From assembly GCA_029934095.1 (NCBI GenBank), contig JAOZMV010000022.1:1-13129 (forward strand): DNA of 13,129 nt. The letters run 5' to 3'. Shown in pieces: positions 1 through 13,129 of this stretch. The stretch is from Desulfuromusa sp. Lineage in GTDB: Bacteria; Desulfobacterota; Desulfuromonadia; Desulfuromonadales; Geopsychrobacteraceae. The translations under genes were made by a program, and so were the position numbers. The notes under the pieces are model-generated. The model worked only from the letters and a program-made list of their open reading frames with translations. It had not been told where the DNA came from and did no database searches. Position 1 is the stretch's first letter; every line of letters starts with the position of its first letter.

Positions 1-580
1 AATCATAATCCTGCAAAGCATAAAAGATGTCAAAACCAGAGACCCAGAACAGAACGGCAATTCCAAGGGAGATAACCGGCCAACCGAGATCACCACGCAA
101 CGCCACCCAGGCACCAATCGGTGCAGCGGCAAGGCAGATCCCCAGAACCACATGGGCAAAATGGGTAAAACGTTTGCAATATGAGTAGAGGACAAAAAAT
201 CCAACCACAACTGGTGCTAATTTCAAGCAAAGGGGATTCAACATCCATGCAGCAAAAAGGAAGATGATGAGCGCCACCAGAATAAACAATGTTGCTTCCA
301 GAAACGACACCTTCCCCGCAGGGATATGGCGATCAGCAGTGCGTGGATTTTTGGCATCGATCTTTGCATCTATCAGCCGATTTAAACCCATCGCTGTGGT
401 TCGCGCCCCAACCATTGCCACACAAACCCAGAAAACCTGTCCAATACCGGGAGCCTTGCCACTTGCCAGTGAGGCCAGCACCACCCCCATCAGTGCAAAC
501 GGGAAAGCAAAGATTGTATGGGAGAATTTGATCATTTCCAGCAGGGATTTAAATTTCTCCCAAGCTTGTTTTTTATCCAT
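1..580 (-). CDS. ubiA: UbiA-family prenyltransferase (partial, C-terminal end outside window)
   Basis: Integral-membrane prenyltransferase that attaches a polyprenyl chain to an aromatic ring during quinone synthesis. The 193 visible residues carry the first Mg-diphosphate motif N67-R-x-x-D71-x3-D75 and the start of the second, D184-x-x-Y-x-x-Q-D191, both typical of the family, plus several hydrophobic segments (about 22-40, 96-115, 120-135, 143-160, 168-183). The ATG at 580-578 is preceded by AGAGAG at suitable distance and the N-terminus resembles family members. Family members are about 280-290 residues, so roughly 95 residues are missing beyond base 1. In anaerobic deltaproteobacteria the product is probably a menaquinone-pathway enzyme (the MqnP-like role of the futalosine route) rather than ubiquinone-specific; that is inference, and the symbol marks the family only. 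Confidence 0.93.
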   Translation of the reverse strand, partial: MDKKQAWEKFKSLLEMIKFSHTIFAFPFALMGVVLASLASGKAPGIGQVFWVCVAMVGARTTAMGLNRLIDAKIDAKNPRTADRHIPAGKVSFLEATLFILVALIIFLFAAWMLNPLCLKLAPVVVGFFVLYSYCKRFTHFAHVVLGICLAAAPIGAWVALRGDLGWPVISLGIAVLFWVSGFDIFYALQDYD

Positions 581-680
581 CACAGCAACTCTCTTTTTAA
601 CAATTTTTAACAAGAATAATGAAGCGGACAATTTACACCCTGACAAGTCATGGAACAAGGTCTTTCAGCCATTTGTTTCC

Positions 681-760
681 AGTAGTCTGTCAGGCTTTGC
701 GAATCGCAACGAAAAACTGACTGTTCGAGGGCAGATTCTTATAAAGTTTGACAGACTACT
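681..760. repeat. 12-bp perfect inverted repeat, arms 681-692 and 749-760
   Basis: AGTAGTCTGTCA at 681-692 is repeated exactly in inverted form at 749-760, with 56 bases between. The right arm overlaps the candidate -35 box of the downstream gene. It may be a pair of operator half-sites or a long-range hairpin; no regulator is recognisable. Confidence 0.5.
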
Positions 761-780
761 CACAGTCGGTCTGCTATGAT
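748..780 (+). promoter_or_regulatory. Candidate sigma-70 promoter of the yqaA-MFS operon
   Basis: A perfect -35 TTGACA at 748-753 is followed after 18 bases by TGCTAT (772-777); the overlapping extended -10 form TG-C-TATGAT ends at 780 but would be 21 bases away. Either would start transcription at about 784-788, essentially on the ATG at 788, so the message would be leaderless or nearly so. Confidence 0.4.
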
Positions 781-787
781 CCCTCCC

Positions 788-1258
788 ATGGCTGAATTTC
801 TCACTGAATATGGTCTCTGGTCACTCTTTTTCATCAGTTTCTGTGCCTCAACCCTGTTACCACTGGGATCTGAATGGTTGCTGGTTGCCCTGTTACTGCA
901 AGGGAGCAATCCCGTTGCAGCTGTTGTGGTTGCCACACTCGGCAATTCGCTCGGTTCCGGAACCAATTATCTGATCGGCTATTATGGCGGTGACTGGTTA
1001 CAGAAAAAGTTGCTCCGAATCGACAAGAAACAGCAACAGCGAGCTGAAGTATGGTTTAACCGTTATGGCATTTGGTCTCTACTGCTGGCATGGTTACCGG
1101 TTGTCGGCGATCCCCTCTGCCTGATCAGTGGGATGCTAAAAACTCCATTAATTCGCTTTTCTCTGTTGGTGACAGCTGGCAAGGGGTTACGTTATTCAGT
1201 CCTGACTCTACTTACTTTTCAGGGAGCAGAAATACTTGCGTATTCTGGACCAATCTGA
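788..1258 (+). CDS. yqaA: YqaA-like membrane protein (DedA/SNARE-associated superfamily)
   Basis: Small inner-membrane protein of unknown biochemical role, 156 residues. It resembles the YqaA family, itself related to DedA proteins thought to act in lipid or proton-coupled transport. Visible features are an N-terminal hydrophobic stretch with S-T-L-L-P-L-G-S-E, the central N-S-L-G-S-G-T-N-Y-L-I-G-Y segment typical of the family, a charged loop K-K-x-Q-Q-Q-R-A-E, then W-L-P-V-V-G-D-P. I chose the ATG at 788 because M-A-E-F-L begins as other YqaA proteins do; an in-frame ATG at 776 would add M-I-P-P. Neither start has a Shine-Dalgarno sequence. The TGA stop overlaps the next ATG (TGATG at 1256-1260), so the MFS gene is probably translationally coupled. 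Confidence 0.85.
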   Translation: MAEFLTEYGLWSLFFISFCASTLLPLGSEWLLVALLLQGSNPVAAVVVATLGNSLGSGTNYLIGYYGGDWLQKKLLRIDKKQQQRAEVWFNRYGIWSLLLAWLPVVGDPLCLISGMLKTPLIRFSLLVTAGKGLRYSVLTLLTFQGAEILAYSGPI

Positions 1259-2418
1259 TGCTTTACACCCCGGCATTTGCCGCCCTCTTTATTGCAAACC
1301 TTTTTCTGGTCGCCAGTTTTGCAACTTTTTTTCTATTTCCCCTGTTTATCACCGGCCATGGTGGCAGCCACCAGGATATCGGCATTATCATGGGCATATT
1401 TGCCCTGGCTTCAGCTCTCTGCCGTCCCTGGATTTCCGAAATGATAGATCGCCTTGGTCGCAAGCGCAGTTATACCATCGGCTGCACCATCATGACCCTC
1501 ATACCACTGTTGTATTTACTGTTGCAAGGAACGCTCTCAGACTATTATCTGTTTCTGTTGCTCCTCCGTATCATTCACGGTATTGGGCTGGCCATCTGCT
1601 TTACGGCAATATTTACTTTCATTGTCGATCTGATCCCGGTCAGTCGTTTGAACGAAGGGATCGGCATGTTCGGGACATCCGGGTTGATCGGCATGGCGAT
1701 CGGTCCACTGATTGCCGAGCCGATATTGCAAAAATTCGGCTTCCCCGCTTTTTTCCTCACCGCTTCCGGGCTGGCTGGCGCAGCCTTACTGCTGCAGTCA
1801 CCCATCAGCGACAAACACCACCTGCAACAGGCAGAGATAGAACCCTCACCATCGTTCTTCTCCCTGCTGAAAACCCGTAAACAATTAGTTAGCGGAGGGC
1901 TCGCTTTGCTGTTTGGCTTTGGTTTGGCTGCCACAGTAAACTTTATTGCTCCATTTGCTCAAGAACGGGAACTCAGCTACATATCAACCTACTATCTTGC
2001 CTATTCCTTTGCGGCAGTCGGCGTCCGTTTTCTCGCTGGACGAATGGCTGATCGGATTGGTGAAAATCAGATAATCCCCTGGGGACTGTCTCTTGCCGCA
2101 GGAGGACTGCTGTTGGTTCCACTGGTTCATGGTAATCTATTATTACTGATTGTTGGTTTTATTTTCGGAATCGGTCATGGACTGTTGTTTCCTGCCCTGA
2201 ATGCTATGGCGGTGCGGAATGAACCTTATGCAGTACGTGGCAAAGTGACTGGAATTTTTACCGGGGGAATTGATGCTGGAGTCTTTTGTGGCGCCATGAT
2301 CCTGGGAGTGATTGGCGAGATGGCAGGATTTACAGCTCTCTTTATTTGTGCCGGATTGACTGTCCTGAGCGGACTCTATTTGTTCCGCATGAAACCTGAC
2401 TACAACTTGAAACGATAA
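1258..2418 (+). CDS. Major facilitator superfamily transporter
   Basis: Twelve-helix inner-membrane secondary transporter of 386 residues, a normal MFS length. The loop between helices 2 and 3 carries motif A in the form D-R-L-G-R-K-R, and a degenerate second copy, G-R-M-A-D-R-I-G, begins the C-terminal half as expected from the duplicated MFS fold. The open frame extends further upstream inside the yqaA-like gene, but the ATG at 1258, sharing one base with that gene's stop, gives the normal N-terminus directly before helix 1. Substrate is not deducible; the sequence looks most like drug/sugar efflux-type MFS proteins. The coupled yqaA-like partner suggests an envelope-related export role, which is inference only. 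Confidence 0.9.
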   Translation: MLYTPAFAALFIANLFLVASFATFFLFPLFITGHGGSHQDIGIIMGIFALASALCRPWISEMIDRLGRKRSYTIGCTIMTLIPLLYLLLQGTLSDYYLFLLLLRIIHGIGLAICFTAIFTFIVDLIPVSRLNEGIGMFGTSGLIGMAIGPLIAEPILQKFGFPAFFLTASGLAGAALLLQSPISDKHHLQQAEIEPSPSFFSLLKTRKQLVSGGLALLFGFGLAATVNFIAPFAQERELSYISTYYLAYSFAAVGVRFLAGRMADRIGENQIIPWGLSLAAGGLLLVPLVHGNLLLLIVGFIFGIGHGLLFPALNAMAVRNEPYAVRGKVTGIFTGGIDAGVFCGAMILGVIGEMAGFTALFICAGLTVLSGLYLFRMKPDYNLKR

Positions 2419-2482
2419 ATAAAGCCCTCCCCTTTCTCCCGCTCTGTCGTTCCCGGCAGACCGGAGCCGTTACTATAAGTCA

Positions 2483-3382
2483 TCAACTCGCCTCTGCATC
2501 AACTCCTAGAAATTGCTTCCAGAAAAACTGCAGGGTTCCCTGCGCCTGATTATTGACCGGCACATCGATCAACTTTTCCGACAGGGTATTTAAAGCTTGT
2601 GCCACCTTATGATCTGGATAGAGATCGACCATAACCTGCTGCTGACGCACCGATTCATGTATTTTTCGGTCAAAGGGGATACAACCTAGATAATCGAGAA
2701 AAATATCGAGATAGCGTCCCGAAACCATGGTCAACTTCTCAAAAACATCCAAACCCTCAGCCGTACCCCGTGTTTCATTAACCACCAATAAAAACCGTTT
2801 TTGATGGTACTGGGTCGAAAGCAGTTTCATCAGGGCATAGGCATCGGTCATTGCTGTTGGTTCCGGAGTCGTCACTACCAGAATATCCTGGGCAGCTACG
2901 TTAAAATAGGTGACATTATCGGAGAGACCTGATTCTGTATCGATTAATACCACGTCAAAATGCTCTTGAAGAGCATCCAGCGAATCGATCAGTCGCATCT
3001 TCAGTTGACCATCAAGACGGGTGTACTGTTGTACTCCAGATCCGGCCGGAAGAATCTTTAAACCATAAGGCCCTTCGACCATCACCTCTTCCAGAGTCTT
3101 CTCACCATTAAAAAAATGATTTAAGTTGTACTCCGGTAAAATACCAAGAACCACATCTATATTTGCCAGACTCAGGTTGGCATCAATGATCAAAACCTTT
3201 TTTCCCTGTTTGGCTAAAGAGACAGCAATATTAGAAACTACAACCGTTTTTCCAACCCCCCCTTTACCACTGGTAATTGACAAAACCCGGGTCATTGGTA
3301 TCTGTAGTTCAGCACTCCCCTCAGCCAACGGACTCTGCATACTCCTCAATACTCCAGCTTGATCTGTAACGACTTTTATCAC
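2483..3382 (-). CDS. flhG: FlhG/FleN-type MinD-like ATPase (isolated copy)
   Basis: P-loop ATPase of the MinD/ParA (SIMIBI) class, 299 residues. FlhG sets number and position of flagella with the GTPase FlhF. The N-terminus contains D7-Q-A-G-V-L-R13, an exact match to the DQAxxLR motif by which FlhG stimulates FlhF. The deviant Walker A motif is K40-G-G-V-G-K-T46, followed by I-I-D67-A-N-L-S-L-A-N-I-D, and the switch/Walker B region is V-L-I-D148-T-E-S-G; T-D-A-Y-A-L-M-K also fits FlhG. Start is GTG at 3382-3380, preceded by GGAGG with 8-base spacing. No flhF, fliA or other flagellar gene adjoins it, which is unusual. Two substitutions against common FlhG sequence are visible: D-A-N-L-S for D-A-D-L-G, and D-T-E-S-G for D-T-G-A-G. 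It may therefore be a paralogue controlling another polar structure. Confidence 0.85.
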   Translation of the reverse strand: MIKVVTDQAGVLRSMQSPLAEGSAELQIPMTRVLSITSGKGGVGKTVVVSNIAVSLAKQGKKVLIIDANLSLANIDVVLGILPEYNLNHFFNGEKTLEEVMVEGPYGLKILPAGSGVQQYTRLDGQLKMRLIDSLDALQEHFDVVLIDTESGLSDNVTYFNVAAQDILVVTTPEPTAMTDAYALMKLLSTQYHQKRFLLVVNETRGTAEGLDVFEKLTMVSGRYLDIFLDYLGCIPFDRKIHESVRQQQVMVDLYPDHKVAQALNTLSEKLIDVPVNNQAQGTLQFFWKQFLGVDAEAS

Positions 3383-3565
3383 ACTGTCAGCCTCCGTAAT
3401 TTTTTCTGCCGTTCAGCAACCATTTCAGGCTCTCTTTGCAACTGTGACCGTAGCATTGCACAGATCCACCTGCTGCCCGGTATCCTCACTGATGAGCTTT
3501 AATAGCACGTAGGATTCAAGAACAAATCGAGTATTATAAAAAATTTCCTACTTCTGGATATCCAG

Positions 3566-3673
3566 TCAAGTGATTGGAACTGCAGCCTGAGCAGTCATTG
3601 TCACGCTCATAAAAAACAACAGCAAAAACAACAGTAGCCCGATGATCCTCACAATTTTAATCGGATATTGCAT
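3566..3673 (-). CDS. Small hydrophobic or secreted peptide, 35 residues (possible remnant of a longer gene)
   Basis: Short ORF with a good ribosome site, GGAGG 5 bases before the ATG at 3673. The peptide is basic at its start (Q-Y-P-I-K-I-V-R), has a strong hydrophobic core (residues 10-24) and ends in T-A-Q-A-A-V-P-I-T, so it looks like a Sec signal peptide with an A-Q-A cleavage site and almost no mature part, or a single-span membrane peptide. A sigma-54-like site lies about 45 bases upstream and flhG follows. In the same frame beyond the TGA, after five codons and a TAG, a further 40 codons stay open to a TGA at 3425-3427, with plausible protein-like composition. That pattern allows a decayed gene for an 82-codon secreted protein. 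No homologue is recognised. Confidence 0.4.
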   Translation of the reverse strand: MQYPIKIVRIIGLLLFLLLFFMSVTMTAQAAVPIT

Positions 3674-3717
3674 CCACGCCTCCAGCAACTATTTATTCAC
3701 ATTCGGAGATCTTCATA

Positions 3718-3733
3718 AGCGAGAACTGTGCCA
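3718..3733 (-). promoter_or_regulatory. Sigma-54-like (-24/-12) promoter facing the small peptide and flhG
   Basis: Read on the minus strand the site is TGGCACAGTTCTCGCT: a perfect -24 element TGGCAC and a -12 element TCGCT (consensus TTGCW), with exactly ten bases between the GG and GC dinucleotides. Transcription would start at about 3706, giving a leader of roughly 33 bases to the peptide ATG. Sigma-54 control is common for flagellar and pilus genes in deltaproteobacteria. No enhancer-binding site was identified. Confidence 0.45.
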
Positions 3734-3901
3734 GAAAAGACAAACCACCCCAACCTGTTGAATTAAGACCATTTATTGGCGAACAGAACTAACCAAGAGT
3801 GGCAGGGGAGTGACCGAAACAAAAAAAGACATGATTTTGACAGAATAAAGTACCCCTGAAACATTGACCATTTTTTCTAACTGGACAGAAATTTTAAGAG
3901 G

Positions 3902-3931
3902 TTGCCCGATTTTCTCGTTTCAGGTTATGAT
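3902..3931 (+). promoter_or_regulatory. Sigma-70 promoter of the selenoprotein candidate
   Basis: -35 TTGCCC (3902-3907, four of six consensus bases), 18-base spacer, -10 TATGAT (3926-3931, five of six). Predicted start near 3938, leaving a leader of about 23 bases that contains only the Shine-Dalgarno sequence AAGGAG at 3948-3953. Confidence 0.55.
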
Positions 3932-3960
3932 GCGCTGATAAATTAAGAAGGAGAAACAAC

Positions 3961-4128
3961 ATGGATTGGTTTTATTTTCTGGGAATTATTGTTGTCTGGT
4001 ACGTTCTGAACCGCTGGATTTTGCCACGGATGGGGATTCAAACATGAATGTCCGGTAGCTGTGAGCTTCCGCGTGACGGAGAGCAAAAAACTGACCCGAA
4101 CAGTTCTGGGGTGAGTAAAGAAAAATGA
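3961..4128 (+). CDS. Probable small membrane selenoprotein (in-frame UGA = Sec29)
   Basis: ORF of 55 residues if the TGA at 4045-4047 is read as selenocysteine, or 28 residues if it is a stop. AAGGAG lies 7 bases before the ATG. Residues 3-21 form one hydrophobic, Trp-rich membrane segment (W-F-Y-F-L-G-I-I-V-V-W-Y-V-L), followed by R-W-I-L-P-R-M-G-I-Q-T, then U29-M-S-G-S-C34 and a polar tail rich in Lys, Asp and Ser that ends at TGA 4126-4128. A U-x4-C pair after a membrane anchor suggests a redox or metal site near the membrane face. Supporting evidence: the frame stays open after the UGA, a hairpin suitable as a bacterial SECIS follows it, and a rho-independent terminator begins 12 bases after the second stop, not after the first. 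I recognise no named family. Selenocysteine use is known in Desulfuromonadales, but no sel genes are in this window. The alternative is an ordinary 28-residue membrane peptide. Confidence 0.68.
4065..4084 (+). promoter_or_regulatory. SECIS-like hairpin downstream of the in-frame UGA
   Basis: The 5' arm GCTTCCG (4065-4071) pairs with CGGAG (4077-4081) and GC (4083-4084), with A4082 bulged and one G-U pair; the 5-base loop is CGTGA (4072-4076). Twenty-four bases separate the UGA from the loop, and a G is the second loop base. Both fit what is known of bacterial SECIS elements (loop about 16-37 bases from the UGA, G among the first two loop bases). Folding was done by eye. Confidence 0.55.
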
Positions 4129-4139
4129 GATTTAAATTG

Positions 4140-4170
4140 AAGGTCGCTTGAAAGAGCGACCTTTTTTATT
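4140..4170 (+). terminator. Rho-independent terminator of the selenoprotein unit
   Basis: Stem AGGTCGCT (4141-4148) / AGCGACCT (4155-4162), extended by A4140-T4163, loop TGAAAG, followed by a run of T to 4167. It lies 12 bases after the stop at 4128. Confidence 0.92.
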
Positions 4171-4171
4171 G

Positions 4172-4187
4172 GGGGGTCCGTACCCCC
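4172..4187. repeat. Small G/C hairpin after the terminator
   Basis: GGGGGT and ACCCCC flank the 4-base loop CCGT. No T-run follows on either strand, so it is not an obvious terminator; it may help stop transcripts converging from the cardiolipin synthase side. Confidence 0.4.
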
Positions 4188-4282
4188 AAAACTATATCCT
4201 TAGCAACTATTTGCCATTACTTAAGGGTAATACTCACCAGCAAAACATCATCTTTAAACCCCTCATCCGCATAGACTTCAGC

Positions 4283-5701
4283 CTATAGGTAGGGTGAAAA
4301 TAACCGGCAAAAAGAGTCCCGTAACCGCGACGGCAGGGAACGGCCATCCATATCTTCAAGGGAAACTTCACGGGCCTGTTCACGGGATCGGTCAAAGTGG
4401 TGAATCAGCTCCGTAACTGTTTCCGTATCAAAGACTTCCACATTAAACTCAAAATTCAAACGCAAACTGCGCGGATCAATATTAGCAGACCCGATCAGGG
4501 CATATTCGTCATCGATCAGCAGAAATTTACTGTGGATAAAGGGGGGTGGCTGGAAATAGATATGGGCATTGTGCTCAAGTAATTCAAACAGCAGAGCATT
4601 TGTGGCCCAGGCAACATAAGGGAGGTTGTTCTGTTTGGGCAGAAGAATATCGACCTGCACTCCCCGGAGAGCGGCAGTATTGATCGCCGCAAGCTGCGCG
4701 CGGCTGGGAAGAAAGTAAGGGGTCATAATCCGAATATGGGATTTTGCACAGGCCAAGGCACCGATGAGGATCCAGTTGAGCTTTTCATGCTGTTCATTAG
4801 GACCAGCACTGATCCCACGGCAACAGGCATTGCCTACGACAGGTGAAGCTGGCCAGTCATGTGGCTCGCGCTTTTGATCTGTTGCATAATGCCAGTCTTC
4901 CATAAAGGCATCGCGTAACTGCTCACAGATTGGTCCCTCGAAGCGAAAGTGAATATCAACAATCCGACCCGGTGTGTTCCTGGCCAGAGCCATATGTCGA
5001 TCACGAATATTCATTCCACCGGTAAAGCTGAAACTATTATCAACAATCAATAATTTACGATGATTTCGCAGATTAAAGTAAAAACTGCCCAGAAGGGTAA
5101 AAGGTAGAAATACAGCGGTTTTGACTTTGGTTCCACGAAATATGCGGCGGATCTTTTTAAAAGAGTAAAGTTCACCGAAAGCATCTATCAATACTCTGAC
5201 ATCAACGCCTCTTTCTGCTACAGCAATCAATTCCCCGGCAAACTGTTGTCCGATCTGATCCGATTTCAGTATGTAGCTGGACAAAAAGACCGATTCCTTT
5301 GCCTGGTTGATTGCGTCCAACATGGCTGGATAGGTTTGTTCGCCATTGTAGAGAACGGTGATTCTGTTGCCAAAAGTAAGAGGGCGTCGGGTCACGGCAT
5401 CAGAGAGTTTGATCAGCGTCTGGCTGGTACTGGTGACAGGAAAGTTCTCTATGTGTTGCTGCGGTGCTGGCTGATCAACATGCAGCCAGTGCATCCCCTG
5501 CCCTTGTTCCTGAATTGCCCGGGAGCGGGTACGGATTCGATTGACACCTAACAACCAATATAGGAGTGGGCCGACACCCGGAACTGCCAGGCAGGTAATG
5601 ATCCAGCCAACTGCTGCTCGCGGGTCACGTTTGGTCAACAACGCATGTCCGGCAGACAAAAGCGAGAAGAGCAAAAGGATGGCCAGCAACAGAGTCAGCA
5701 T
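4283..5701 (-). CDS. cls: Cardiolipin synthase (phospholipase D superfamily)
   Basis: Membrane enzyme that joins two phosphatidylglycerol molecules into cardiolipin and glycerol, 472 residues, the normal bacterial length. Two N-terminal hydrophobic segments (about 1-20 and 32-53) form the PLDc_N anchor. Both catalytic HKD motifs are intact: H214-R-K216-x4-D221 with downstream G-G-M-N, and H390-S-K392-x4-D397 with G-S-A-N. The end R-L-F-S-P-Y-L matches the usual C-terminal pattern, so the TAG at 4285-4283 is the true stop. AGGAG lies 4 bases before the ATG. The zinc-ribbon gene ends 27 bases upstream in the same direction, so the two are probably one operon read from the promoter at 6114-6142. 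Confidence 0.95.
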   Translation of the reverse strand: MLTLLLAILLLFSLLSAGHALLTKRDPRAAVGWIITCLAVPGVGPLLYWLLGVNRIRTRSRAIQEQGQGMHWLHVDQPAPQQHIENFPVTSTSQTLIKLSDAVTRRPLTFGNRITVLYNGEQTYPAMLDAINQAKESVFLSSYILKSDQIGQQFAGELIAVAERGVDVRVLIDAFGELYSFKKIRRIFRGTKVKTAVFLPFTLLGSFYFNLRNHRKLLIVDNSFSFTGGMNIRDRHMALARNTPGRIVDIHFRFEGPICEQLRDAFMEDWHYATDQKREPHDWPASPVVGNACCRGISAGPNEQHEKLNWILIGALACAKSHIRIMTPYFLPSRAQLAAINTAALRGVQVDILLPKQNNLPYVAWATNALLFELLEHNAHIYFQPPPFIHSKFLLIDDEYALIGSANIDPRSLRLNFEFNVEVFDTETVTELIHHFDRSREQAREVSLEDMDGRSLPSRLRDSFCRLFSPYL

Positions 5702-5728
5702 GCGTCTCCTGGGGTATGAAGGGTGCGT

Positions 5729-6061
5729 CTAGCGTAGTGTTGTCCCGCAGCGGGGACAGGTCAGAACGGTATTGGTGGAAACCTTTTCACCACAGGTTGG
5801 GCAGTTGAACCAATGGTGGCAAAAACGACATTGTTGCTCTGATAATCCCTGCTTTTTTTTACATTTGGGACACCGACGATACATTTTTCGACCGTTGAGA
5901 TAATCCTCAAAAAAGAGACCACAACGGGGGCATTCGGTTGCTCCTGGTTTCACTGTCGCTTCACAACCGGGAATTGGGCACTTAAAGACAGTTTTACAGT
6001 TGCTGCACCAGTATTCTCCCTTGAGGGGGGCCTCACATTTTTGACATCGTTTAATAGCCAT
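5729..6061 (-). CDS. Small protein with four zinc ribbons
   Basis: 110-residue cytoplasmic protein made almost wholly of zinc-binding modules. Eight cysteine pairs form four ribbons: C6-x2-C9/C19-x2-C22, C28-x4-C33/C44-x2-C47, C64-x2-C67/C78-x2-C81 and C87-x2-C90/C102-x2-C105, with a basic linker (about 54-63) between the second and third. The ribbons resemble double zinc-ribbon domains that mediate protein or nucleic-acid contacts; no catalytic residues are visible. GGAG precedes the ATG at 6 bases. It is the first gene of a probable operon with cls. Function unknown; an adaptor or regulatory role is a guess. Confidence 0.82.
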   Translation of the reverse strand: MAIKRCQKCEAPLKGEYWCSNCKTVFKCPIPGCEATVKPGATECPRCGLFFEDYLNGRKMYRRCPKCKKKQGLSEQQCRFCHHWFNCPTCGEKVSTNTVLTCPRCGTTLR

Positions 6062-6113
6062 TATTTGCTCCAGAATCTGAACTGATGGTTTACCGTTCCC
6101 TTTGCTGACTCAC

Positions 6114-6142
6114 ATCATAGTTGACAAAAGCGGGATTGCCAA
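6114..6142 (-). promoter_or_regulatory. Sigma-70 promoter of the zinc-ribbon/cls operon
   Basis: On the minus strand: -35 TTGGCA (6142-6137, five of six), 17-base spacer, -10 TATGAT (6119-6114, five of six). Start of transcription is expected near 6107, about 45 bases before the ATG at 6061. Confidence 0.6.
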
Positions 6143-6167
6143 GGGAAAGGCTAACCGAAAATAGTTT

Positions 6168-6539
6168 TTAATCGACAGAACCACGTTTCATCCACTGGCT
6201 GAAGTCCCCCTTTATCTGCTCTGCATCGCCAAAGTTTAACTCCAGCAAGCGGCGTAAATGAGCCATGCTTTCTGTTTTTTCTGAGGTAAACATAAAGCCG
6301 TAAAAATTTCCACGCTGATGAATTAACTCACCAATAAACTCCATCCGTATCGAAGAATCAAATGAATGAATGCTCAAAGGGACCTGACTCCCAAGGAGAA
6401 GGGTGAGTTCTTGTTTCGATCTGAATAATGCCCCCTGGAGAGCCAAGTCAACCAGATCGCAGCGATAAATAGTGCTATCGATGCTGATATCTGCTTCCGT
6501 AAGAAAATTAATTCTCCGGTCGCTACGTTGTTCTGTCAT
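6168..6539 (-). CDS. PilZ-domain protein (probable c-di-GMP receptor)
   Basis: 123-residue soluble protein consisting of one PilZ domain. The c-di-GMP-binding R-x3-R motif is present at R5-S-D-R-R9. The second motif, normally D-x-S-x-x-G, reads D-L-A-L-Q-G (about residues 31-36), so serine is replaced by alanine; the following A-L-F-R and the F-Y-G-F-M-F strand fit the beta-barrel. AGAGGAG is 6 bases before the ATG. It likely stands alone: the zinc-ribbon gene downstream has its own promoter in the gap between them. The target process (motility, adhesion, matrix) cannot be told from the sequence. Confidence 0.8.
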   Translation of the reverse strand: MTEQRSDRRINFLTEADISIDSTIYRCDLVDLALQGALFRSKQELTLLLGSQVPLSIHSFDSSIRMEFIGELIHQRGNFYGFMFTSEKTESMAHLRRLLELNFGDAEQIKGDFSQWMKRGSVD

Positions 6540-6659
6540 GGCAAAGCTCCTCTTATCTGCCTTGCGTGAGATTAGCTGGATTTCTCTGTGGCTATTATTG
6601 TAACAGGAAATTGAACATTTACTTCTTTCTGCACAGCTCTTCTCTGGGCGCGGGTATTT

Positions 6660-6698
6660 AGTTTTAGAATTATCACTTAAGTTTTAGAAATGTCACTT
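6660..6698. repeat. Tandem direct repeat with 20-bp period upstream of tsp
   Basis: AGTTTTAGAATTATCACTT (6660-6678) is followed by AGTTTTAGAAATGTCACTT (6680-6698): 17 of 19 bases match. The period of about two helical turns places both copies on one DNA face, ending at the candidate -35 box of tsp. It fits a paired activator or repressor site; a remnant of transposon-end repeats is another reading. Confidence 0.6.
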
Positions 6699-6726
6699 GC
6701 GATTGATTAGCAGTCAGGGTTACATT
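6697..6726 (+). promoter_or_regulatory. Weak candidate promoter of tsp
   Basis: TTGCGA (6697-6702), 18-base spacer, TACATT (6721-6726); each box matches four of six consensus bases. It overlaps the end of the tandem repeat, which would suit activation by a bound protein. Confidence 0.3.
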
Positions 6727-6778
6727 GCCTTAAGAATTTCAAATCGATGCTGTTGTCAAATCTGATGGGGTTATTTTT

Positions 6779-8866
6779 ATGTTTTATCCGGCAAAATATA
6801 TAAATCGAATTATTTTAGTTCTGCTGTTCACATTATTACCAGTCTGCTCCTGGGGCAAAGAAGTTGATACCTTTGATACCAACCGTGCCCGGCTACTGGG
6901 TCATATGCTGCAACAACAACTCAGCGGGAAGCATTACGGTCAGAAACCGACTGACGATGCCCTTTCCCATGCGGCATTCGATCTTTATCTAAAACAGCTC
7001 GACTTTCAAAAACGTTTTCTCCTGCAGGAAGATATTGCCAAATTAAAATTTTTCAAAGATCGGATTGATGATGCTCTCCGCCGTGGACGATTGGAATTGC
7101 CGCTGGTCGGACAGGATATTTTGAATCACCGGATTACTCAGGTACAAACTATCGTCACAGAACTTTTCGAGGAAAAAATCGACCCGACCCTGGTTGAAAG
7201 TATCGAAACAGATCCTGATAAATTGGACTATGCTGTTGATTTGACCGAGCTGCGCGAGCGCTGGCGAAAAATTATCAAAGCACAAGTATTTACCCGTTAC
7301 ATCGGTCTGCGAGAAGATGACATTGGTCTTGATGACGATGGAAAATTATTACCCGTTGATGAGGATACAGATGCTGAGCTGTTATATCAGGCTAAAGAAA
7401 AAGCGGCTAAAACCGATCATAATTTGCTGAAACGGATGTTCGAAGAAACGTCTCAGGACCATTATGATCGTTATCTGAATGCAATCGCCCGGGCTTATGA
7501 CCCACATACCAGTTATCTACCTCCAACGACAAAGGAGGATTTTGATATTCAGATGAGTGGTTCCCTGGAAGGAATCGGCGCAACTTTGCGCGAAGACGAT
7601 AACTATATCAAGGTGGTAAGAGTTATTCCCGGCAGTGCTGCTGCTCGGCAGGGGCAACTGGAAGCAGATGATATTATTCTCAAGGTTGCGGAAGGAAATG
7701 ACGATCCGGTAGATATCACTGACACCCGAATTCGTGATGCCGTTGCCCTGATCCGGGGGAAAAAGGGAACCGAAGTTCGCTTGACGGTAAAAAAGGCGGA
7801 TGGCAGCCAGTTGGTGATTCCAATTATCCGGGATGTGGTGGAGATTAAAGAAACTTTTGTCAAGGGAACGACAGTGACTGATGACGAGAGTGGTCAAACC
7901 TTCGGCTACATCAAAATCCCCTCTTTCTATCGTGATTACAGCGGAAAAACAGACCGAAATTGTACCGATGATTTGCGCCGGGAACTGAAGAAGCAAAATA
8001 AAGCCAACATTTCCGGTTTGATTCTTGATCTGCGCAATAATGGAGGTGGTTCTCTGTCCGATGCAGTGAGTACCACCGGGCTGTTTATCAAAACCGGCCC
8101 GGTCGTGCAGATTCGCAACAGCTCGGGGCAAATCCAGATTATGGGTGACGATGATAGCTCCGTAGAGTATTCGGGACCAATGATTGTGCTGGTTAATCGT
8201 TTCAGTGCATCCGCTTCGGAGATTCTGGCCGGGGCCCTTCAGGACTATGGTCGCGCCTTGATTGTTGGTGATGTACATACCCATGGCAAGGGAACCGTAC
8301 AGGCACTGCTGGATCTGGATCGTTTTGTCAATCTGCGTGGAATGGAGAAATATATTCCTCTTGGTGCGGTAAAAATCACCATCCAGAAGTTCTATCGAAT
8401 CAGCGGTGAATCAACCCAGGAAGAAGGGGTTATCCCTGATATTGAATTGCCCTCACGTTTGGATGGTTTAAAGAGTGGGGAGAAATATTTAGATAATGCC
8501 ATGCCATGGGATCATATTGCTTCAGCAACCTATAAACCCTGGAAACCTGCACCTGAAAACATTCCGAAACTGCAGCAAAAGAGTAAAGCTCGAATAAAAT
8601 CGGATGAAGATTTCCAGGAAATTATTTCCGATGCTGATAGTGCCCAAAAAAGACGTGAAGAGACTCAGCAATCCCTGTTATTAAAAGATCTGCTGGCTGA
8701 GCGTGATCAATTACATGATGAAAGAGAAAGAATGACACCACATGGTGCAATGGCGACGGACGATGACGATAAGAAAACAAAATCCCTGGATGAAGAAATC
8801 GCCGATGATCCCTACGTCAAAGAGGGGGTCACAATCCTGGAAGATATGCTGGGGTCTACCCCTTAA
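6779..8866 (+). CDS. prc: Tail-specific (C-terminal processing) protease Tsp/Prc
   Basis: Periplasmic S41A serine protease that degrades proteins with nonpolar C-termini and trims envelope proteins; 695 residues, like E. coli Prc. A signal peptide covers about residues 1-26. An N-terminal helical domain (about 30-235) is followed by the PDZ domain (about 255-345, with G-S-L-E-G-I-G-A-T-L) and the protease domain. Catalytic residues by alignment to E. coli: Ser478 in F-S-A-S-A-S-E, Lys504 in H-G-K-G-T-V-Q, and Asp489 in L-Q-D-Y-G. The C-terminal part (about 560-690) is highly charged and matches the extra domain of long Prc proteins. The ATG at 6779 has only a weak GGGG ribosome site 9 bases upstream. 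Transcribed alone, convergent with znuA. Confidence 0.95.
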   Translation: MFYPAKYINRIILVLLFTLLPVCSWGKEVDTFDTNRARLLGHMLQQQLSGKHYGQKPTDDALSHAAFDLYLKQLDFQKRFLLQEDIAKLKFFKDRIDDALRRGRLELPLVGQDILNHRITQVQTIVTELFEEKIDPTLVESIETDPDKLDYAVDLTELRERWRKIIKAQVFTRYIGLREDDIGLDDDGKLLPVDEDTDAELLYQAKEKAAKTDHNLLKRMFEETSQDHYDRYLNAIARAYDPHTSYLPPTTKEDFDIQMSGSLEGIGATLREDDNYIKVVRVIPGSAAARQGQLEADDIILKVAEGNDDPVDITDTRIRDAVALIRGKKGTEVRLTVKKADGSQLVIPIIRDVVEIKETFVKGTTVTDDESGQTFGYIKIPSFYRDYSGKTDRNCTDDLRRELKKQNKANISGLILDLRNNGGGSLSDAVSTTGLFIKTGPVVQIRNSSGQIQIMGDDDSSVEYSGPMIVLVNRFSASASEILAGALQDYGRALIVGDVHTHGKGTVQALLDLDRFVNLRGMEKYIPLGAVKITIQKFYRISGESTQEEGVIPDIELPSRLDGLKSGEKYLDNAMPWDHIASATYKPWKPAPENIPKLQQKSKARIKSDEDFQEIISDADSAQKRREETQQSLLLKDLLAERDQLHDERERMTPHGAMATDDDDKKTKSLDEEIADDPYVKEGVTILEDMLGSTP

Positions 8867-8929
8867 CTTATTGACTGTGGGGAAACTCCTCTCGCCCTCC
8901 ACCCCCGGATCATCTTATTTACCGCTCAC

Positions 8930-9880
8930 TCACTGGTCCGGAGTCAATCCTGCCGAAAGATTATCTACCAACTGAGTCATAAGCTGAAAGTAAGCTTCCG
9001 GTCCTGCAGGAAGATCTGCCCCCAGGGGGTCAAGAATTCCTGTTTTTGCCCCGGTCCCTTCTATCACTGTTGCAATGAGGCGTGATTCGAATTGCGGCTC
9101 GCTGAATACGCAACGGGCGCCCAGCTGATTGATTTTCTGACGGATCTCTTTAATCCTTTTAGCTCCGGGCGTCCTTTCTGGATCGATCGTAATTGAGCCA
9201 ACAGCATTTAATCCATAGGCCGATTCAAAATACTGATAAGCTGCATGGAAAACGATGTAAGGGGTATCTTTAACCGCTGCAAGCTGTTGTTTTAAACTCT
9301 GATCGAGTTGATCGAGTTTTGTAACCAGAGCGGTTGTATTGCTGCGATACTGGGAACTGTGAACTGGATCAATTTCGGACAATCTGTCACTGGCCAGGAT
9401 AACGATCTGTTTGGCCAGAGCGGGATCGAGCCAGAGGTGTAAATCGGCACTTTGATATCGGCTATTCGGATCAACATGCTCCCCTTCTCTTGAATGCTGG
9501 TGAGCTCGACCTTCCCAGCGATCCCCTTGTTGTTTCACCAGCAGATCATCCTGCAACAGGTCAGAGAGTTTTAGCTGCTGGGCTCTCTTACCAAGAGTCG
9601 CCAGCGGTTTCTGTAGAAAACTTTCCAGATCCTCGCCCACCCAGACAACCAGTTGAGCCCGGGACAAAGCCCGTGCCTCAGAAGGACGCAGCACATAGCC
9701 GTGAGGTGACCCTCCCCCTTTGACCAGCAGCAGAGGAACGCCAACTCCCTGCATAACTCCAGCCACCAATGAATGGAGTGGTTTGATGCTGACAACCACT
9801 AAGGGAAACGATGATTCAACAGCCCATGCCGGTGTCAACAGGGAGCAAAGGAACAAACAGATTAAATATACTTTTGCCAT
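8930..9880 (-). CDS. znuA: Zinc ABC transporter substrate-binding protein ZnuA
   Basis: Periplasmic cluster A-I solute-binding protein that delivers Zn(II) to ZnuBC; 316 residues. Signal peptide 1-20 ends in P-A-W-A. Expected metal ligands are H60 (S-P-H-G-Y), H148 (D-L-H-L-W-L-D-P), H212 (V-F-H-A-A-Y-Q-Y-F) and D284 (I-L-D-P-L-G). A short His-rich loop, R-A-H-Q-H-S-R-E-G-E-H (125-135), lies where ZnuA proteins carry their flexible zinc-gathering loop. Together with the Zur box this favours zinc over manganese. GAGG is 8 bases before the ATG at 9880. It diverges from zur-znuCB and shares their operator. Confidence 0.94.
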   Translation of the reverse strand: MAKVYLICLFLCSLLTPAWAVESSFPLVVVSIKPLHSLVAGVMQGVGVPLLLVKGGGSPHGYVLRPSEARALSRAQLVVWVGEDLESFLQKPLATLGKRAQQLKLSDLLQDDLLVKQQGDRWEGRAHQHSREGEHVDPNSRYQSADLHLWLDPALAKQIVILASDRLSEIDPVHSSQYRSNTTALVTKLDQLDQSLKQQLAAVKDTPYIVFHAAYQYFESAYGLNAVGSITIDPERTPGAKRIKEIRQKINQLGARCVFSEPQFESRLIATVIEGTGAKTGILDPLGADLPAGPEAYFQLMTQLVDNLSAGLTPDQ

Positions 9881-9916
9881 GATATTACCTCACCGATTCA
9901 GACAAACATGAATAAC

Positions 9917-9945
9917 TTGATCTATTTGTTATGTTATAATATAAC
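9917..9945 (+). promoter_or_regulatory. Promoter of zur-znuC-znuB
   Basis: TTGATC (9917-9922, four of six), 17-base spacer, TATAAC (9940-9945, five of six). The -10 box lies inside the Zur palindrome, so bound Zur would block polymerase. Confidence 0.5.
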
Positions 9946-9946
9946 A
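9932..9946. promoter_or_regulatory. Zur box (perfect palindrome) controlling znuA and zur-znuCB
   Basis: TGTTATAATATAACA is perfectly symmetric about A9939 and matches the core of the proteobacterial Zur operator (TGTTATANTATAACA). It is the only such site in the 98-base intergenic region, 52 bases from the znuA ATG and 33 from the zur ATG, and overlaps -10-like sequence on both strands. Zn-loaded Zur should repress both transcripts, including its own gene. Confidence 0.9.
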
Positions 9947-9978
9947 GTCTATGAATCAAGCTACCGAGGAAAAATATT

Positions 9979-10488
9979 ATGTGTTCCAACAAAAATCTAC
10001 ATTTCATATCCGGGGAACATGACCATCAGAGCTGTCTTGACGGTGCGATGGCCAATGCAGAGCAATTATGTAAGCAACACGGGCAACATTTTACCGCAAC
10101 CCGTCGGCGGGTATTTGAGATCGTCTGGCAACAACATAAACCGATTGGTGCCTATGAAGTTCTGGAACAGCTGCAACAGGATGGCCGCGCCGCGCCGCCA
10201 ACGGTTTACCGGGCCCTCGATTTTTTGCTTGATCTTGGGTTGGTACACCGGATCAGTTCATTGAATGCCTATGTTGGCTGCACCCATCCAGACTATCCTC
10301 ACGATGGACAGTTCCTGATCTGTAAATCTTGCAAATCCTTTGCCGAACTGGACTCCCCTCTGGTTACAGCTGCCATTGAACAGAGTGCAGCTGATGCCGA
10401 TTTTGAGGTTCATCAGCATACGGTAGAGATCATGGGGCTCTGTCCACGTTGTCGAATCAAAACTTGTGGTGAGGATAATAATGAGTAA
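9979..10488 (+). CDS. zur: Zinc uptake regulator Zur (Fur family)
   Basis: Fur-family repressor of 169 residues. The winged helix holds F-T-A-T-R-R-R-V-F (38-46) and the recognition helix [11 protein letters not shown] (73-83). Structural zinc ligands are C115-x2-C118 and C155-x2-C158. The regulatory zinc site of E. coli Zur (H77, C88, H96, E111) corresponds to H90, C101, H108 and E123 here, supporting zinc rather than iron sensing. The first 20 residues carry extra Cys/His (H-D-H-Q-S-C). GAGG is 9 bases before the ATG. The stop overlaps the znuC start by 8 bases, so the genes are co-transcribed and autoregulated through the Zur box. Confidence 0.93.
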
Positions 10489-11242
10489 TCTTGGCCAACC
10501 ATTCCTGGAGGTTTCTGCTGTCGAGCTGATCCTGGGAAAACGACTTTTACTGGAGAATATCAACCTGAAGGTTGGAGCGGGTGAAATTTTGACGGTTATC
10601 GGACCGAATGGCGCCGGAAAAACAACCCTGTTGCGGGTGGCCCTTGGTCTGCAAAAGCCAACCTCCGGAACGGTCAGACAACGGCCAGGATTGACCATCG
10701 GCTATATGCCACAGCGGCTCCATCTGGACCCCACCCTCCCACTGACGGTAAGGCGGTTCATGGCACTGGCCTGCAATAATGATCAGGGCAAAATTTTATC
10801 GTTATTAGCCGAAGTTGGTGCTGCACATGTTATTGACTCTGCGGTGCAGACCCTTTCCGGTGGTGAGTTACAGCGGGTTCTGCTCGCACGCGCGCTGGTA
10901 CGTGAACCTGATCTATTGGTTCTTGACGAGCCGGTTCAGGGAGTCGATGTTCATGGCCAGGTTGAGCTTTATCAACTAATTTCAAGGCTGCGTGATCAAC
11001 GTGGTTGCGCGGTGTTAATGGTCTCCCACGATCTCCACCTGGTGATGGCGGCAACCGACCAGGTGCTGTGCTTGAATCGGCATATCTGCTGTAGTGGCAC
11101 GCCCGAATCGGTGACCAACGATCCAGCATTTGTCGAGCTGTTTGGCTCTGCCGCAGTTCAATCCATGGCGGTGTACGTCCACGATAAGGATCATCATCAC
11201 GACCACTGTTCAACCTGTGGCAGGAGATCTGCAAATGATTGA
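10481..11242 (+). CDS. znuC: Zinc ABC transporter ATP-binding protein ZnuC
   Basis: ATPase of the zinc importer, 253 residues. Walker A G41-P-N-G-A-G-K-T48, Q-loop Q78, signature L125-S-G-G-E129, Walker B L-L-V-L-D149-E150 and switch H183 are all intact. The C-terminal tail [13 protein letters not shown] (234-246) is a likely metal-binding or zinc-sensing extension. The ATG at 10481 has GAGG 6 bases upstream and overlaps the zur stop; an in-frame GTG at 10466 exists but gives a poorer fit. The gene overlaps the znuB start by 8 bases. Confidence 0.95.
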
Positions 11243-12038
11243 TGACTTTTTGTTACGAGCCCTGTTCGGGGGGCTGGGAGTTGCTCTGGTCGCTGGCCCT
11301 TTTGGATCTTTTGTCGTCTGGCGCCGGTTGGCTTATTTTGGTGACACCCTGTCCCATTCAGCCCTGCTCGGGGTCGCCCTGGGCTTTATCCTGCACGTCA
11401 ACCTCACCGTTGGCATCATAGTTATCTGTCAACTTCTTGCTATCCTCCTATTCTATAGCCAGCGGCAGCGGCAATTGGCAAGCGATACCATGCTCGGTAT
11501 CTTTGCTCATGGCGCTCTTTCTCTGGGGTTGGTGGCGTTATCCTTTATGGAGGATGTCAGAATTGACCTGGTCGCCTACCTGTTTGGCGATATTCTGGCG
11601 ATCAGCAACGGTGATCTGGGCTGGATTTTTATCGGCGGCGGGGTCGCACTGGCTGGTCTGCTCTGGCTCTGGAAACCGTTACTTGCCATCACCATCCATG
11701 AAGACCTGGCACGAGTTGAAGGGGTTCCGGTTGACCGGGTCAACTGGATGTTTCTCGGCTTGATTGCTTTAGTTGTTGCGGTCATGATGAAAGTGGTTGG
11801 AATGTTGCTGGTCACCGCTCTATTGATCATTCCTGCTGCCACCGCTCGACGCTTTGCTGGAAACCCGGAAATGATGGCAGTGCTGGCCAGTCTCATCGGC
11901 TGCTTAGCGGTTTGTCTCGGGTTGTATGGATCATTTCAATGGGACACCCCAACCGGACCGACGATTGTTGTGGCAGCTTGTATTGTATTTACACTTGGAT
12001 TTCTGGCACCGAGAGGGCTGTTCCTTAAAGATCAATAG
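11235..12038 (+). CDS. znuB: Zinc ABC transporter permease ZnuB
   Basis: Membrane permease of the ABC-3 family, 267 residues with about eight hydrophobic segments. It begins F-L-L-R-A-L-F-G-G and has the family segment [18 protein letters not shown] near residues 29-46 and the conserved [18 protein letters not shown] region near 185-202. AGGAG lies 8 bases before the ATG at 11235, which overlaps the end of znuC. It is the last gene of the zur operon. Confidence 0.95.
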
Positions 12039-12099
12039 TCTGAAGTTACCTGACCAGATAATAAATCCTGGCTACTTTTTTATGCTGGCTTAATTCCCT

Positions 12100-12981
12100 A
12101 TGAAGATTCTACCATCTGGACTCAATGCCAAGATCTCCAGACAAACCGTTGGTTGGCTTGCGGTCTTTGGCTCCGCCTTCTTTTTCTACCTGGCCACACT
12201 TATAATTCGCTGGGCCGCACCCCGTGTGACCATTGAATCTGCCTATTTTGTTTTTGCCCGGTTTCTGCTCGGTCTCGGCGTCGTTTCCATCACTATGATT
12301 CTGCAGAAACAGCGATTGCAACCCAAAAAATACCATTACCTGATTGGTCGAACTCTGGCCAATACCATTGCCGTATTCTGTTTTTACAAGGCGGTGGAGA
12401 TGAGCTCGGTGGCTGAGGCCAATATTCTCAATATGACCTATCCTCTGTTTGTTGCTCTGTTCTCCTGGTTTTTTCTTCGGCAGCAGCGTGACGGGTTGTC
12501 TCTGGTGATTGTTGCGGTAGCCTTCAGCGGCGTTTGGCTGGTTCTTTCACCCAGCAATATTACCCCCAGCTGGGGAAATCTATGGGCTCTCAGTTCCGGA
12601 GTAACAGCTGCAGCAGCAATTATTTATCTCAACCTCAGCAGGCGCTATCACGATTCACAGACCATACTTTTTTTCATGTTTGCTCTGGGGACAGCTTTAA
12701 TGCTGATATTTTTCCACGATGCCATCTTTTTACCCAATTTTGAGGAGCTATTTTTCCTCCTCAGCTGTTCGGTTGCCGGGGTCCTCGGTCAGTATCTGCT
12801 CACCTACGGTTTTCTGTACGTCACAGCAGTGGAAGGCTCCATAATCTCTTCCAGTAGAATACTGTTGGCCGCCCTGCTTGGCCCGGTCCTGGTTGCTGAC
12901 CCGGCACTGACAATTTCGGGCTGGTGTGGAGCGCTACTTATATTTGCTGCCAACACAACGCTTGCTTTGAGAAAAACTTGA
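12100..12981 (+). CDS. EamA-family (DMT superfamily) transporter
   Basis: Inner-membrane drug/metabolite transporter of 293 residues, with about ten hydrophobic segments in two EamA repeats (about 20-150 and 160-290). The first repeat has A-R-F-L-L-G-L-G and Y-K-A-V-E-M-S-S-V-A-E-A-N-I-L-N-M-T-Y-P, and the second Y-V-T-A-V-E-G-S-I-I-S-S-S, both typical. The ATG at 12100 gives a normal length but has no clear Shine-Dalgarno sequence. It lies 61 bases after znuB in the same direction; no strong terminator separates them, so partial read-through from the zinc operon is possible. Substrate unknown. Confidence 0.88.
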   Translation: MKILPSGLNAKISRQTVGWLAVFGSAFFFYLATLIIRWAAPRVTIESAYFVFARFLLGLGVVSITMILQKQRLQPKKYHYLIGRTLANTIAVFCFYKAVEMSSVAEANILNMTYPLFVALFSWFFLRQQRDGLSLVIVAVAFSGVWLVLSPSNITPSWGNLWALSSGVTAAAAIIYLNLSRRYHDSQTILFFMFALGTALMLIFFHDAIFLPNFEELFFLLSCSVAGVLGQYLLTYGFLYVTAVEGSIISSSRILLAALLGPVLVADPALTISGWCGALLIFAANTTLALRKT

Positions 12982-13022
12982 ACAGCAGACAGATCACCCT
13001 GCAACCCCTCGTAAAATATTGG

Positions 13023-13129
13023 TCAGAGAGCTAACTGTTGCTTCACCCGACCGAAAGCTGCAATTGCAAATTCGAGATCATCCGCTGTCAAGGCAGCCGA
13101 CATCTGCGTACGGATACGTGCCTTGCCCT
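13023..13129 (-). CDS. kbl: Glycine C-acetyltransferase / 2-amino-3-ketobutyrate CoA ligase (C-terminal fragment)
   Basis: Only the last 34 residues and stop are in the window. They contain G-K-A-R-I-R-T-Q-M-S-A-A, then L-E-F-A-I-A-A-F near the end, the typical C-terminus of Kbl, a PLP enzyme of the alpha-oxoamine synthase family in threonine/glycine metabolism. BioF-type relatives share part of this motif, so the exact enzyme is not certain from this fragment. Convergent with the EamA transporter gene. Confidence 0.8.
   Translation of the reverse strand, partial: GKARIRTQMSAALTADDLEFAIAAFGRVKQQLAL

Follow-up and report, generated by a model that had tools for sequence, protein, structure and literature searches.

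Does a short open reading frame of Desulfuromusa sp. that runs through an in-frame TGA encode a selenoprotein, and what might so small a protein do at the membrane? The frame lies on contig JAOZMV010000022.1 of assembly GCA_029934095.1, of which positions 1 to 13,129 were analyzed (the window, below). An earlier note made from these letters alone had described a 28-codon frame continuing through the TGA for another 26 codons, with the motif G-I-Q-T-U-M-S-G-S-C placing selenocysteine (Sec, U) five positions before a cysteine. The reading frame confirmed both statements, and its translation through the TGA is MDWFYFLGIIVVWYVLNRWILPRMGIQT-U-MSGSCELPRDGEQKTDPNSSGVSKEK (Table 1). The best explanation as a whole, to which we give a probability of about 0.65, is that its product is a small selenoprotein that spans the inner membrane once and belongs to a large bacterial family as yet without annotation, with a U-x4-C pair that would be recycled by thioredoxin (Trx).

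Table 1. Features of the selenoprotein gene and its flanks in the window.
Feature	Positions	Strand	Basis or remark
Flanking gene, ParA/MinD-type ATPase	2483-3382	-	
Sigma-70-like promoter, TTGCCC-18-TATGAT	3902-3931	+	Promoter scan; hexamers also in L001, L002
Shine-Dalgarno sequence AAGGAG	3948-3953	+	7 bases 5' of ATG; also in L001, L002, L003
Family gene, probable 55-residue membrane selenoprotein	3961-4128	+	ATG 3961, 28 codons, TGA 4045-4047, 26 codons, stop TGA 4126-4128
Predicted single transmembrane helix, approximately residues 4-19	3970-4017	+	Sequence
Conserved collar WILPRMGIQT before Sec	4015-4044	+	
In-frame TGA, very probably read as selenocysteine, residue 29	4045-4047	+	
Partner cysteine codon TGT, U+5	4060-4062	+	
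SECIS-like hairpin GCUUCCG[CGUGA]CGG(A)GAGC	4065-4084	+	Loop 24 nt past UGA, one bulge
Terminator-like stem-loop with T-rich tail	4139-4164	+	Terminator scan
Flanking gene, phospholipase-D/cardiolipin-synthase-type	4283-5701	-	

The expression signals proposed for the longer frame were recovered. The strong ribosome site is the AAGGAG ahead of the ATG, and a sigma-70-like promoter is present upstream; the promoter scan returned one site against a shuffle mean of 1.2, which is weak when taken singly, and both hexamers at the 18-base spacer can also be read in the DNA of L001 and L002. The terminator had been placed 12 bases past the second stop. Its perfect 9-nt arms do begin at the 12th base (4140), whereas the terminator-like stem as a whole begins at the 11th; here too the scan is weak when taken singly (one site, shuffle mean 0.7). 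Both flanking genes lie on the minus strand, so that the gene stands alone on its own strand. A search of the window against Rfam gave two weak matches only, both under their gathering scores. Elsewhere in the window, the minus strand at 3383-3673 holds a 35-residue signal-peptide-like frame (MQYPIKIVRIIGLLLFLLLFFMSVTMTAQAAVPIT) followed by short open pieces in the same frame that are split by stops, possibly the remnants of a decayed secreted-protein gene. Positions 8930-12038 carry what we take, from the translations of its frames, to be a zinc-uptake-type cluster, presumably comprising a substrate-binding protein, a Fur-like regulator, an ABC ATPase and a membrane permease.

A protein search with the window protein alone retrieved a single relative, and a profile was needed for more. 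A search of named genome contigs yielded nine relatives, from two Desulfuromusa MAGs, a Desulfuromonadaceae MAG, a Malonomonas MAG, two Desulfobacterales MAGs, Desulfospira joergensenii, a Spirochaetes MAG and a Pirellulaceae MAG. In every one of the nine, the corresponding codon is TGA and the frame continues past it, a strong outcome for the suggested check on conservation downstream of the TGA, and W-I-L-P-R-M-G-I-x-T-U-x4-C is kept in 10/10 sequences of the alignment of the window with these relatives. Whole-genome searches, in which stops were read through and the profile was made from Sec members, found relatives in two phyla: 164 of the 395 genomes sampled for the window's phylum, where each of the matches listed contains one or more in-frame TGA codons, and 24 of 198 genomes of the Spirochaetes MAG's phylum (29 matches listed, all with TGA). 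In the phylum of the Pirellulaceae MAG, 25 of 294 genomes carry relatives, 22 of them Sec forms (including G572, assigned by its translation) and three Cys forms. Because the profile was built from Sec members, Cys forms were probably under-counted in these genome searches.

From the fetched loci, 163 distinct members were kept, 160 with TGA and three with Cys. Duplicate proteins were dropped, as were L010, L052 and the loci at which anchoring failed, namely L065/L089 and L164; the translation of L065 looks like a Sec form truncated at the end of its contig. Anchoring of the 163 members admitted only TGA or a codon for Cys at the Sec position and could not reveal other stops, and the collar test was therefore repeated with any codon allowed. 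In this repeat, the 159 distinct collars found after a hydrophobic stretch were followed by TGA in 155 cases, Cys in three and Gly in one (L164, whose TGA sits one codon later), and by TAA or TAG in none. The zero is telling because the same genes use all three stops about equally at their ends (TGA 50, TAA 47 and TAG 40 among 137 Sec genes). Given these collar counts and the nine relatives with an open frame beyond the codon, the TGA is retained far beyond chance. A synonymous/nonsynonymous count comprised too few changes to carry weight.

Were the UGA an ordinary stop, the gene would specify a 28-residue membrane peptide, and the conservation downstream would reflect a separate signal or an RNA. 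Peptides of this kind are indeed produced by gene callers. The family profile matches 292 database proteins, and among the 120 of these that were listed, 16 are peptides of 28-35 residues ending at the Sec position, as anticipated by the claim that annotation software yields a truncated product. Cys forms dominate the list, with 99 of the 120 (98 recognized by pattern and P0074 by eye), strongly bearing out the suggestion to look for Cys homologues at this codon. These homologues span the position of the supposed stop. Moreover, 154 of the 160 Sec members have a Cys five or six residues past the Sec (U+5 in 141, U+6 in 13, elsewhere or absent in 6), the frame of L008 continues into a thioredoxin, and TAA or TAG never replaces the TGA in the 159 collars even though the genes end in all three stops. 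The 28-residue peptide was rejected on these grounds, and we consider an ordinary stop highly improbable.

The remaining listed proteins carry Trp (four) or Glu (P0088, whose sequence resembles a frameshift) at the Sec position. The Trp entries could be taken to favor a genome-wide reassignment of UGA to tryptophan or another residue, although they are most simply explained as gene calls made with another code. Under such a code TGA would not terminate the same gene, as it does in the window and in 50 of 137 Sec members; in addition, the homologues carry mostly Cys rather than Trp, and SECIS-like hairpins follow the UGA. Tryptophan reassignment was thus rejected, and reassignment in general is the least credible of the readings weighed here.

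The bacterial SECIS model requires a loop of 3-9 nt on a stem of 4-16 bp, with a G in the first two loop positions, 16-37 nt past the UGA, and a folding energy of -7.5 kcal/mol or lower (PMC13188914). As coded here, these constraints were satisfied by 135 of 159 members, compared to 47, 39, 48, 43, 43 and 52 of 159 in six dinucleotide shuffles; the 24 that failed include the close relative L001. A perfect stem of at least 6 bp was found in 97 of 137 members (mean 21 and maximum 31 in 40 shuffles), and in 86 of these 97 the loop starts with G or holds GG, compared to a shuffle mean of 8. The 42 nt directly past the UGA had a mean folding z of -1.23 (se 0.07), whereas the means of six other windows ranged from -0.49 to +0.40. 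A covariation count in 32 sequences, in which 6 of 7 pairs had changed on both sides, was given little weight because the sequences were picked for a stem at one place. In the window itself, the conserved hairpin (-7.1 kcal/mol) is not the minimum-energy fold, the constraints are satisfied through a different fold, and shuffled versions of the stretch past the UGA fold equally well (z -0.14; the corresponding values are -0.19 for L013 and -2.90 for L003). Perfect stems are present in L003, L004, L011, L012 and L013.

The distribution of selB was compared with that of the family. The gene scored above cut-off in all nine genomes of L001-L009 and in 352 of 395 genomes of the window's phylum, where it is present in 155 of the 164 carriers and in 197 of the 231 genomes without a relative (Fisher p 0.005; lists compared by hand). 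It is patchier in the phylum of the Pirellulaceae MAG, with 21 of 22 Sec-form genomes, none of three Cys-form genomes and 27 of 47 non-carriers (47 tested of 269, chosen by handle number). These searches detected no selB in nine of the 164 carriers in the window's phylum, the window's own MAG included, and the searches used found none in the Sec-form genome G411 of the Pirellulaceae phylum. In the window's own MAG, which is 78.7% complete in 309 contigs, selA, selB, selD and tRNA-Sec were all absent above cut-off, and no formate dehydrogenase match had an in-frame TGA. This result speaks for an ordinary stop, and it is formally the lack of selABCD that the earlier note had named as grounds for abandoning its reading. 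The absence may be explained by missing contigs, though several separate genes would have to be gone. The genomes G126, G178 and G381 of the same taxonomic family possess both selB and tRNA-Sec, and both Desulfuromusa genomes possess selB, with tRNA-Sec over cut-off in one of the two, that is, in four of these five genomes.

In sequence terms, the family conserves both the UGA and the reading frame beyond it, most members have a SECIS-like hairpin after the UGA, and Cys replaces Sec in homologues. The case for membership among selenoproteins consists of an in-frame UGA conserved in distant relatives with coding kept on both sides, homologues with Cys at the Sec position, a bacterial SECIS hairpin at the family level (135/159 versus 39-52) and Sec machinery in carrier genomes. 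The proposal of a probable small membrane selenoprotein is supported by TGA conservation, Cys forms, SECIS-like hairpins and the selB pattern, and we concluded that the window gene is almost certainly a selenoprotein gene.

The family proteins are 44-77 residues long, excluding the fusion. In the collar, Gly at U-4 occurs in 137 of 137 Sec members and Thr at U-1 in 134 of 137; Pro at U-7 is likewise found in 137 of 137, a residue that the anchoring forced, whereas it favored the other collar residues without forcing them. Lysine and arginine are more numerous in the 20 residues past the helix than in the N-terminal flank in 137 of 137 members, the latter flank being short. Because of this excess on the C-terminal side, the protein is predicted to be oriented N-out/C-in, which would bring the Sec/Cys pair to the cytoplasmic side, immediately below the membrane.

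Thioredoxin is the partner suggested by the gene neighborhoods. The L008 frame extends without interruption into a full thioredoxin domain (PF00085, E 8e-29); a search with the N-terminus of L008 found no further fusions up to an E value of 10. Clustering by BLAST of the ORFs surrounding 140 members, on which the locus counts for Trx and FmdB are based, placed Trx in eight of 140 loci, always on the strand of the Sec gene: once fused, six times directly upstream (L034, L039, L088, L124, L137 and L163) and once two ORFs downstream (L125). L201 also has a Trx gene, directly downstream of the Sec gene. Taxonomically, the Trx cases are spread over two families in the window's phylum, two Pirellulaceae-phylum genomes (L088, and L008 by fusion) and one Spirochaetes-phylum genome (L201). 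FmdB-type zinc-ribbon ORFs are more frequent, with 12 of 140 loci on the same strand, directly upstream in L023, L027, L031, L037, L106, L116, L130, L155, L170 and L173 and downstream in L102 and L125; in the latter locus, ArsR, the Sec gene, FmdB and Trx form a single run.

Pfam domains among the 112 same-strand neighbors within 100 nt include PF00085 (6), Zn_ribbon_8 (8), the 3D domain (7), histidine-kinase domains (6), YgaP-like_TM (3) and rhodanese (2). In a control of 112 distant ORFs of the same loci (from 140 drawn out of 646, with 28 omitted, including the last 20 of the list), PF00085 was absent among the 25 families listed of 146, where a single match is possible, and AhpC-TSA occurred three times. 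A pattern count over 164 loci and 1240 ORFs assigned 6 of 7 Trx genes and 10 of 10 FmdB genes to the 170 adjacent same-strand slots (p ~4e-5 and ~2e-9, respectively); these values are optimistic because loci from a single genus lack independence and because adjacent cases were already known when the patterns were drawn up. The patterns missed L088, L102 and L125, and the count enters one place (G813, L178 and L204) twice; the BLAST clusters are independent of the patterns. As a separate observation, a conserved protein of 142-143 residues is encoded within 15 nt 3' of the Sec gene, on the same strand, in eight loci (L024, L030, L097, L101, L109, L122, L123 and L128), and the L024 protein has no Pfam match at E 0.01.

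The earlier note had pointed to a redox, selenium or metal-handling role near the membrane surface. A redox role is favored because of the thioredoxin fusion and adjacency, and nothing was found for selenium handling. From its chemistry and gene context, Sec would attack a membrane-proximal oxidant, disulfide or polysulfide and then form a selenenylsulfide with the Cys that lies five or six positions further along; a cytosolic thioredoxin, fused or adjacent in several lineages, would reset the Sec/Cys pair. Of the accounts that draw on the facts established above, a membrane-proximal relay of this kind is the simplest. Trx adjacency is limited to a small minority of loci and FmdB genes are neighbors more often, which counts against it, and we put a thioredoxin-linked relay at even odds. 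The family protein itself was rejected as a Trx-fold protein: no Trx model is among the 17 Pfam families matched by 118 members, the fusion part excluded.

Sulfane-sulfur transfer is the main rival to this relay. The selenoprotein would then take sulfane sulfur onto its Sec/Cys pair at the membrane, for example from sulfide:quinone reductase, and pass it to rhodanese or thioredoxin. Consistent with this, a metallo-beta-lactamase/rhodanese protein is encoded upstream of the Cys forms L079 and L084 (gaps of 10 and -4 nt), and the flavoprotein downstream in L079 is closest to the type III sulfide:quinone reductase model. A Sulf_transp (YeeE/YedE-type) gene lies ~440 nt upstream on the same strand in L067, a Sec form of the Pirellulaceae phylum; the close neighbors include the YgaP-like_TM and rhodanese domains counted above; and the ArsR-type regulator of L119 matches the BigR model below its cut-off. 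However, such contexts are few and the clearest are those of Cys forms, the sulfide:quinone reductase and sulfur-dioxygenase models were matched below their cut-offs, most of the 112 close neighbors are other than sulfur genes, and the L119 regulator passes only the general ArsR/SmtB metalloregulator cut-off. Sulfur transfer is therefore judged unlikely.

Alternatively, the selenoprotein could be no redox relay but a ligand for a metal or metalloid, or else a small regulator in the membrane that acts, for instance, on an efflux system or a sensor kinase. A sensor-kinase gene is found upstream on the same strand, at gaps of 39-73 nt, in L001, L004, L011, L012 and L013, the L001 kinase being closest to CpxA models but below their cut-offs. 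ArsR-family genes adjoin four of 164 loci and are near four more, with the L119 protein above the ArsR/SmtB cut-off, and the FmdB zinc ribbons could be read in the same way. These points are countered by the thioredoxin fusion and adjacency, which indicate redox, and FmdB is of no assigned function; the window has no kinase gene directly upstream, and a sensor kinase was thus rejected as a fixed partner. We regard a ligand or regulator as more doubtful still than sulfur transfer. The ArsR-family regulators of L104, L112, L119, L125, L141, L171, L201 and L202, from two phyla, have a shared cysteine.

The earlier description of the selenoprotein as undescribed holds as far as NCBIfam, Pfam and the literature covered show. 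For 118 members (alignment A6: 105 of 138 reference members and 13 database proteins), there was no credible match in NCBIfam release 20 (June 2026; best E 0.0021) or in Pfam-A (best E 0.0079). The matches are to unrelated membrane-protein models, the most frequent being PF04602 (14 of 118 members, best E 0.0085), and the family profile had no match in the PDB. The accessible parts of a 2026 table of 119 families (PMC13188914) and of the 2022 tables (PMC9312934) contain no entry fitting by name, motif or model. No description of the family appeared among the papers listed by literature searches on bacterial selenoprotein families, U-x4-C selenoproteins or small membrane selenoproteins, nor in the accessible parts of PMC1914089, PMC1242214, PMC1794560, PMC5029168 and PMC8318568. 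On the sources covered, prior description under another name is unlikely.

With relatives in 164 of the 395 genomes sampled for the window's phylum and no NCBIfam or Pfam model that recognizes them, the family adds a new membrane class to selenoproteome surveys and suggests that short selenoproteins can go unnoticed in large numbers. Its Sec and Cys forms make up a natural experiment that tracks selB, and the size of 55 residues allows synthesis and direct redox measurement.

Among the known systems, OS_HP3 and DW (NF041197), DG (NF049953), DF (NF049942), TsoA (NF045695) and UGSC (NF041046) are likewise bacterial selenoproteins with no assigned function. The motifs of these table families are RxU, GxU, GUxG, LULAxC and UGSC (none listed for DF), whereas the window family has U-x4-C after a membrane helix. 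DG, DW and DF occur in Desulfosarcina and Desulfosediminicola, and the three hypothetical families of deep-Sep have NCBIfam models in the 2026 table (PMC13188914; PMC12013277). Selenoprotein thioredoxins and Trx-like families with UxxC share the Sec/Cys pair; in contrast, the window family is membrane-anchored, has U-x4-C and matches no Trx model, and thioredoxin is here a fused or neighboring partner. GOS_A (2008), compared by description only, resembles the window family in its many Cys homologues and its lack of an assigned function; it is reported as a marine family of 2 Sec and 155 Cys sequences (PMC2398784), and the accessible part of the 2026 table does not list it (PMC13188914).

The likeness to SELENOS and SELENOK is one of outline: a small membrane selenoprotein with a Sec/Cys pair. 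SELENOS (VIMP) exposes its Sec to the cytosol and is reduced by thioredoxin, and SELENOK has the layout of a small membrane selenoprotein. In both, Sec lies at the far C-terminus, whereas in the window family it is next to the membrane, in a protein of 44-77 residues with a bacterial-type SECIS within the frame. SelS is described as a 189-residue trans-membrane protein with a proposed Sec188-Cys174 bond (PMC3628699). We tentatively suggest, at somewhat less than even odds, that the family is a bacterial counterpart of SELENOS/SELENOK: a protein of approximately 50 residues holding a selenol on a membrane stalk, near-constant in format across at least three phyla, which would provide thioredoxin with a rapidly reducing group on the inner side of the cytoplasmic membrane and would have been overlooked because gene callers stop at UGA.
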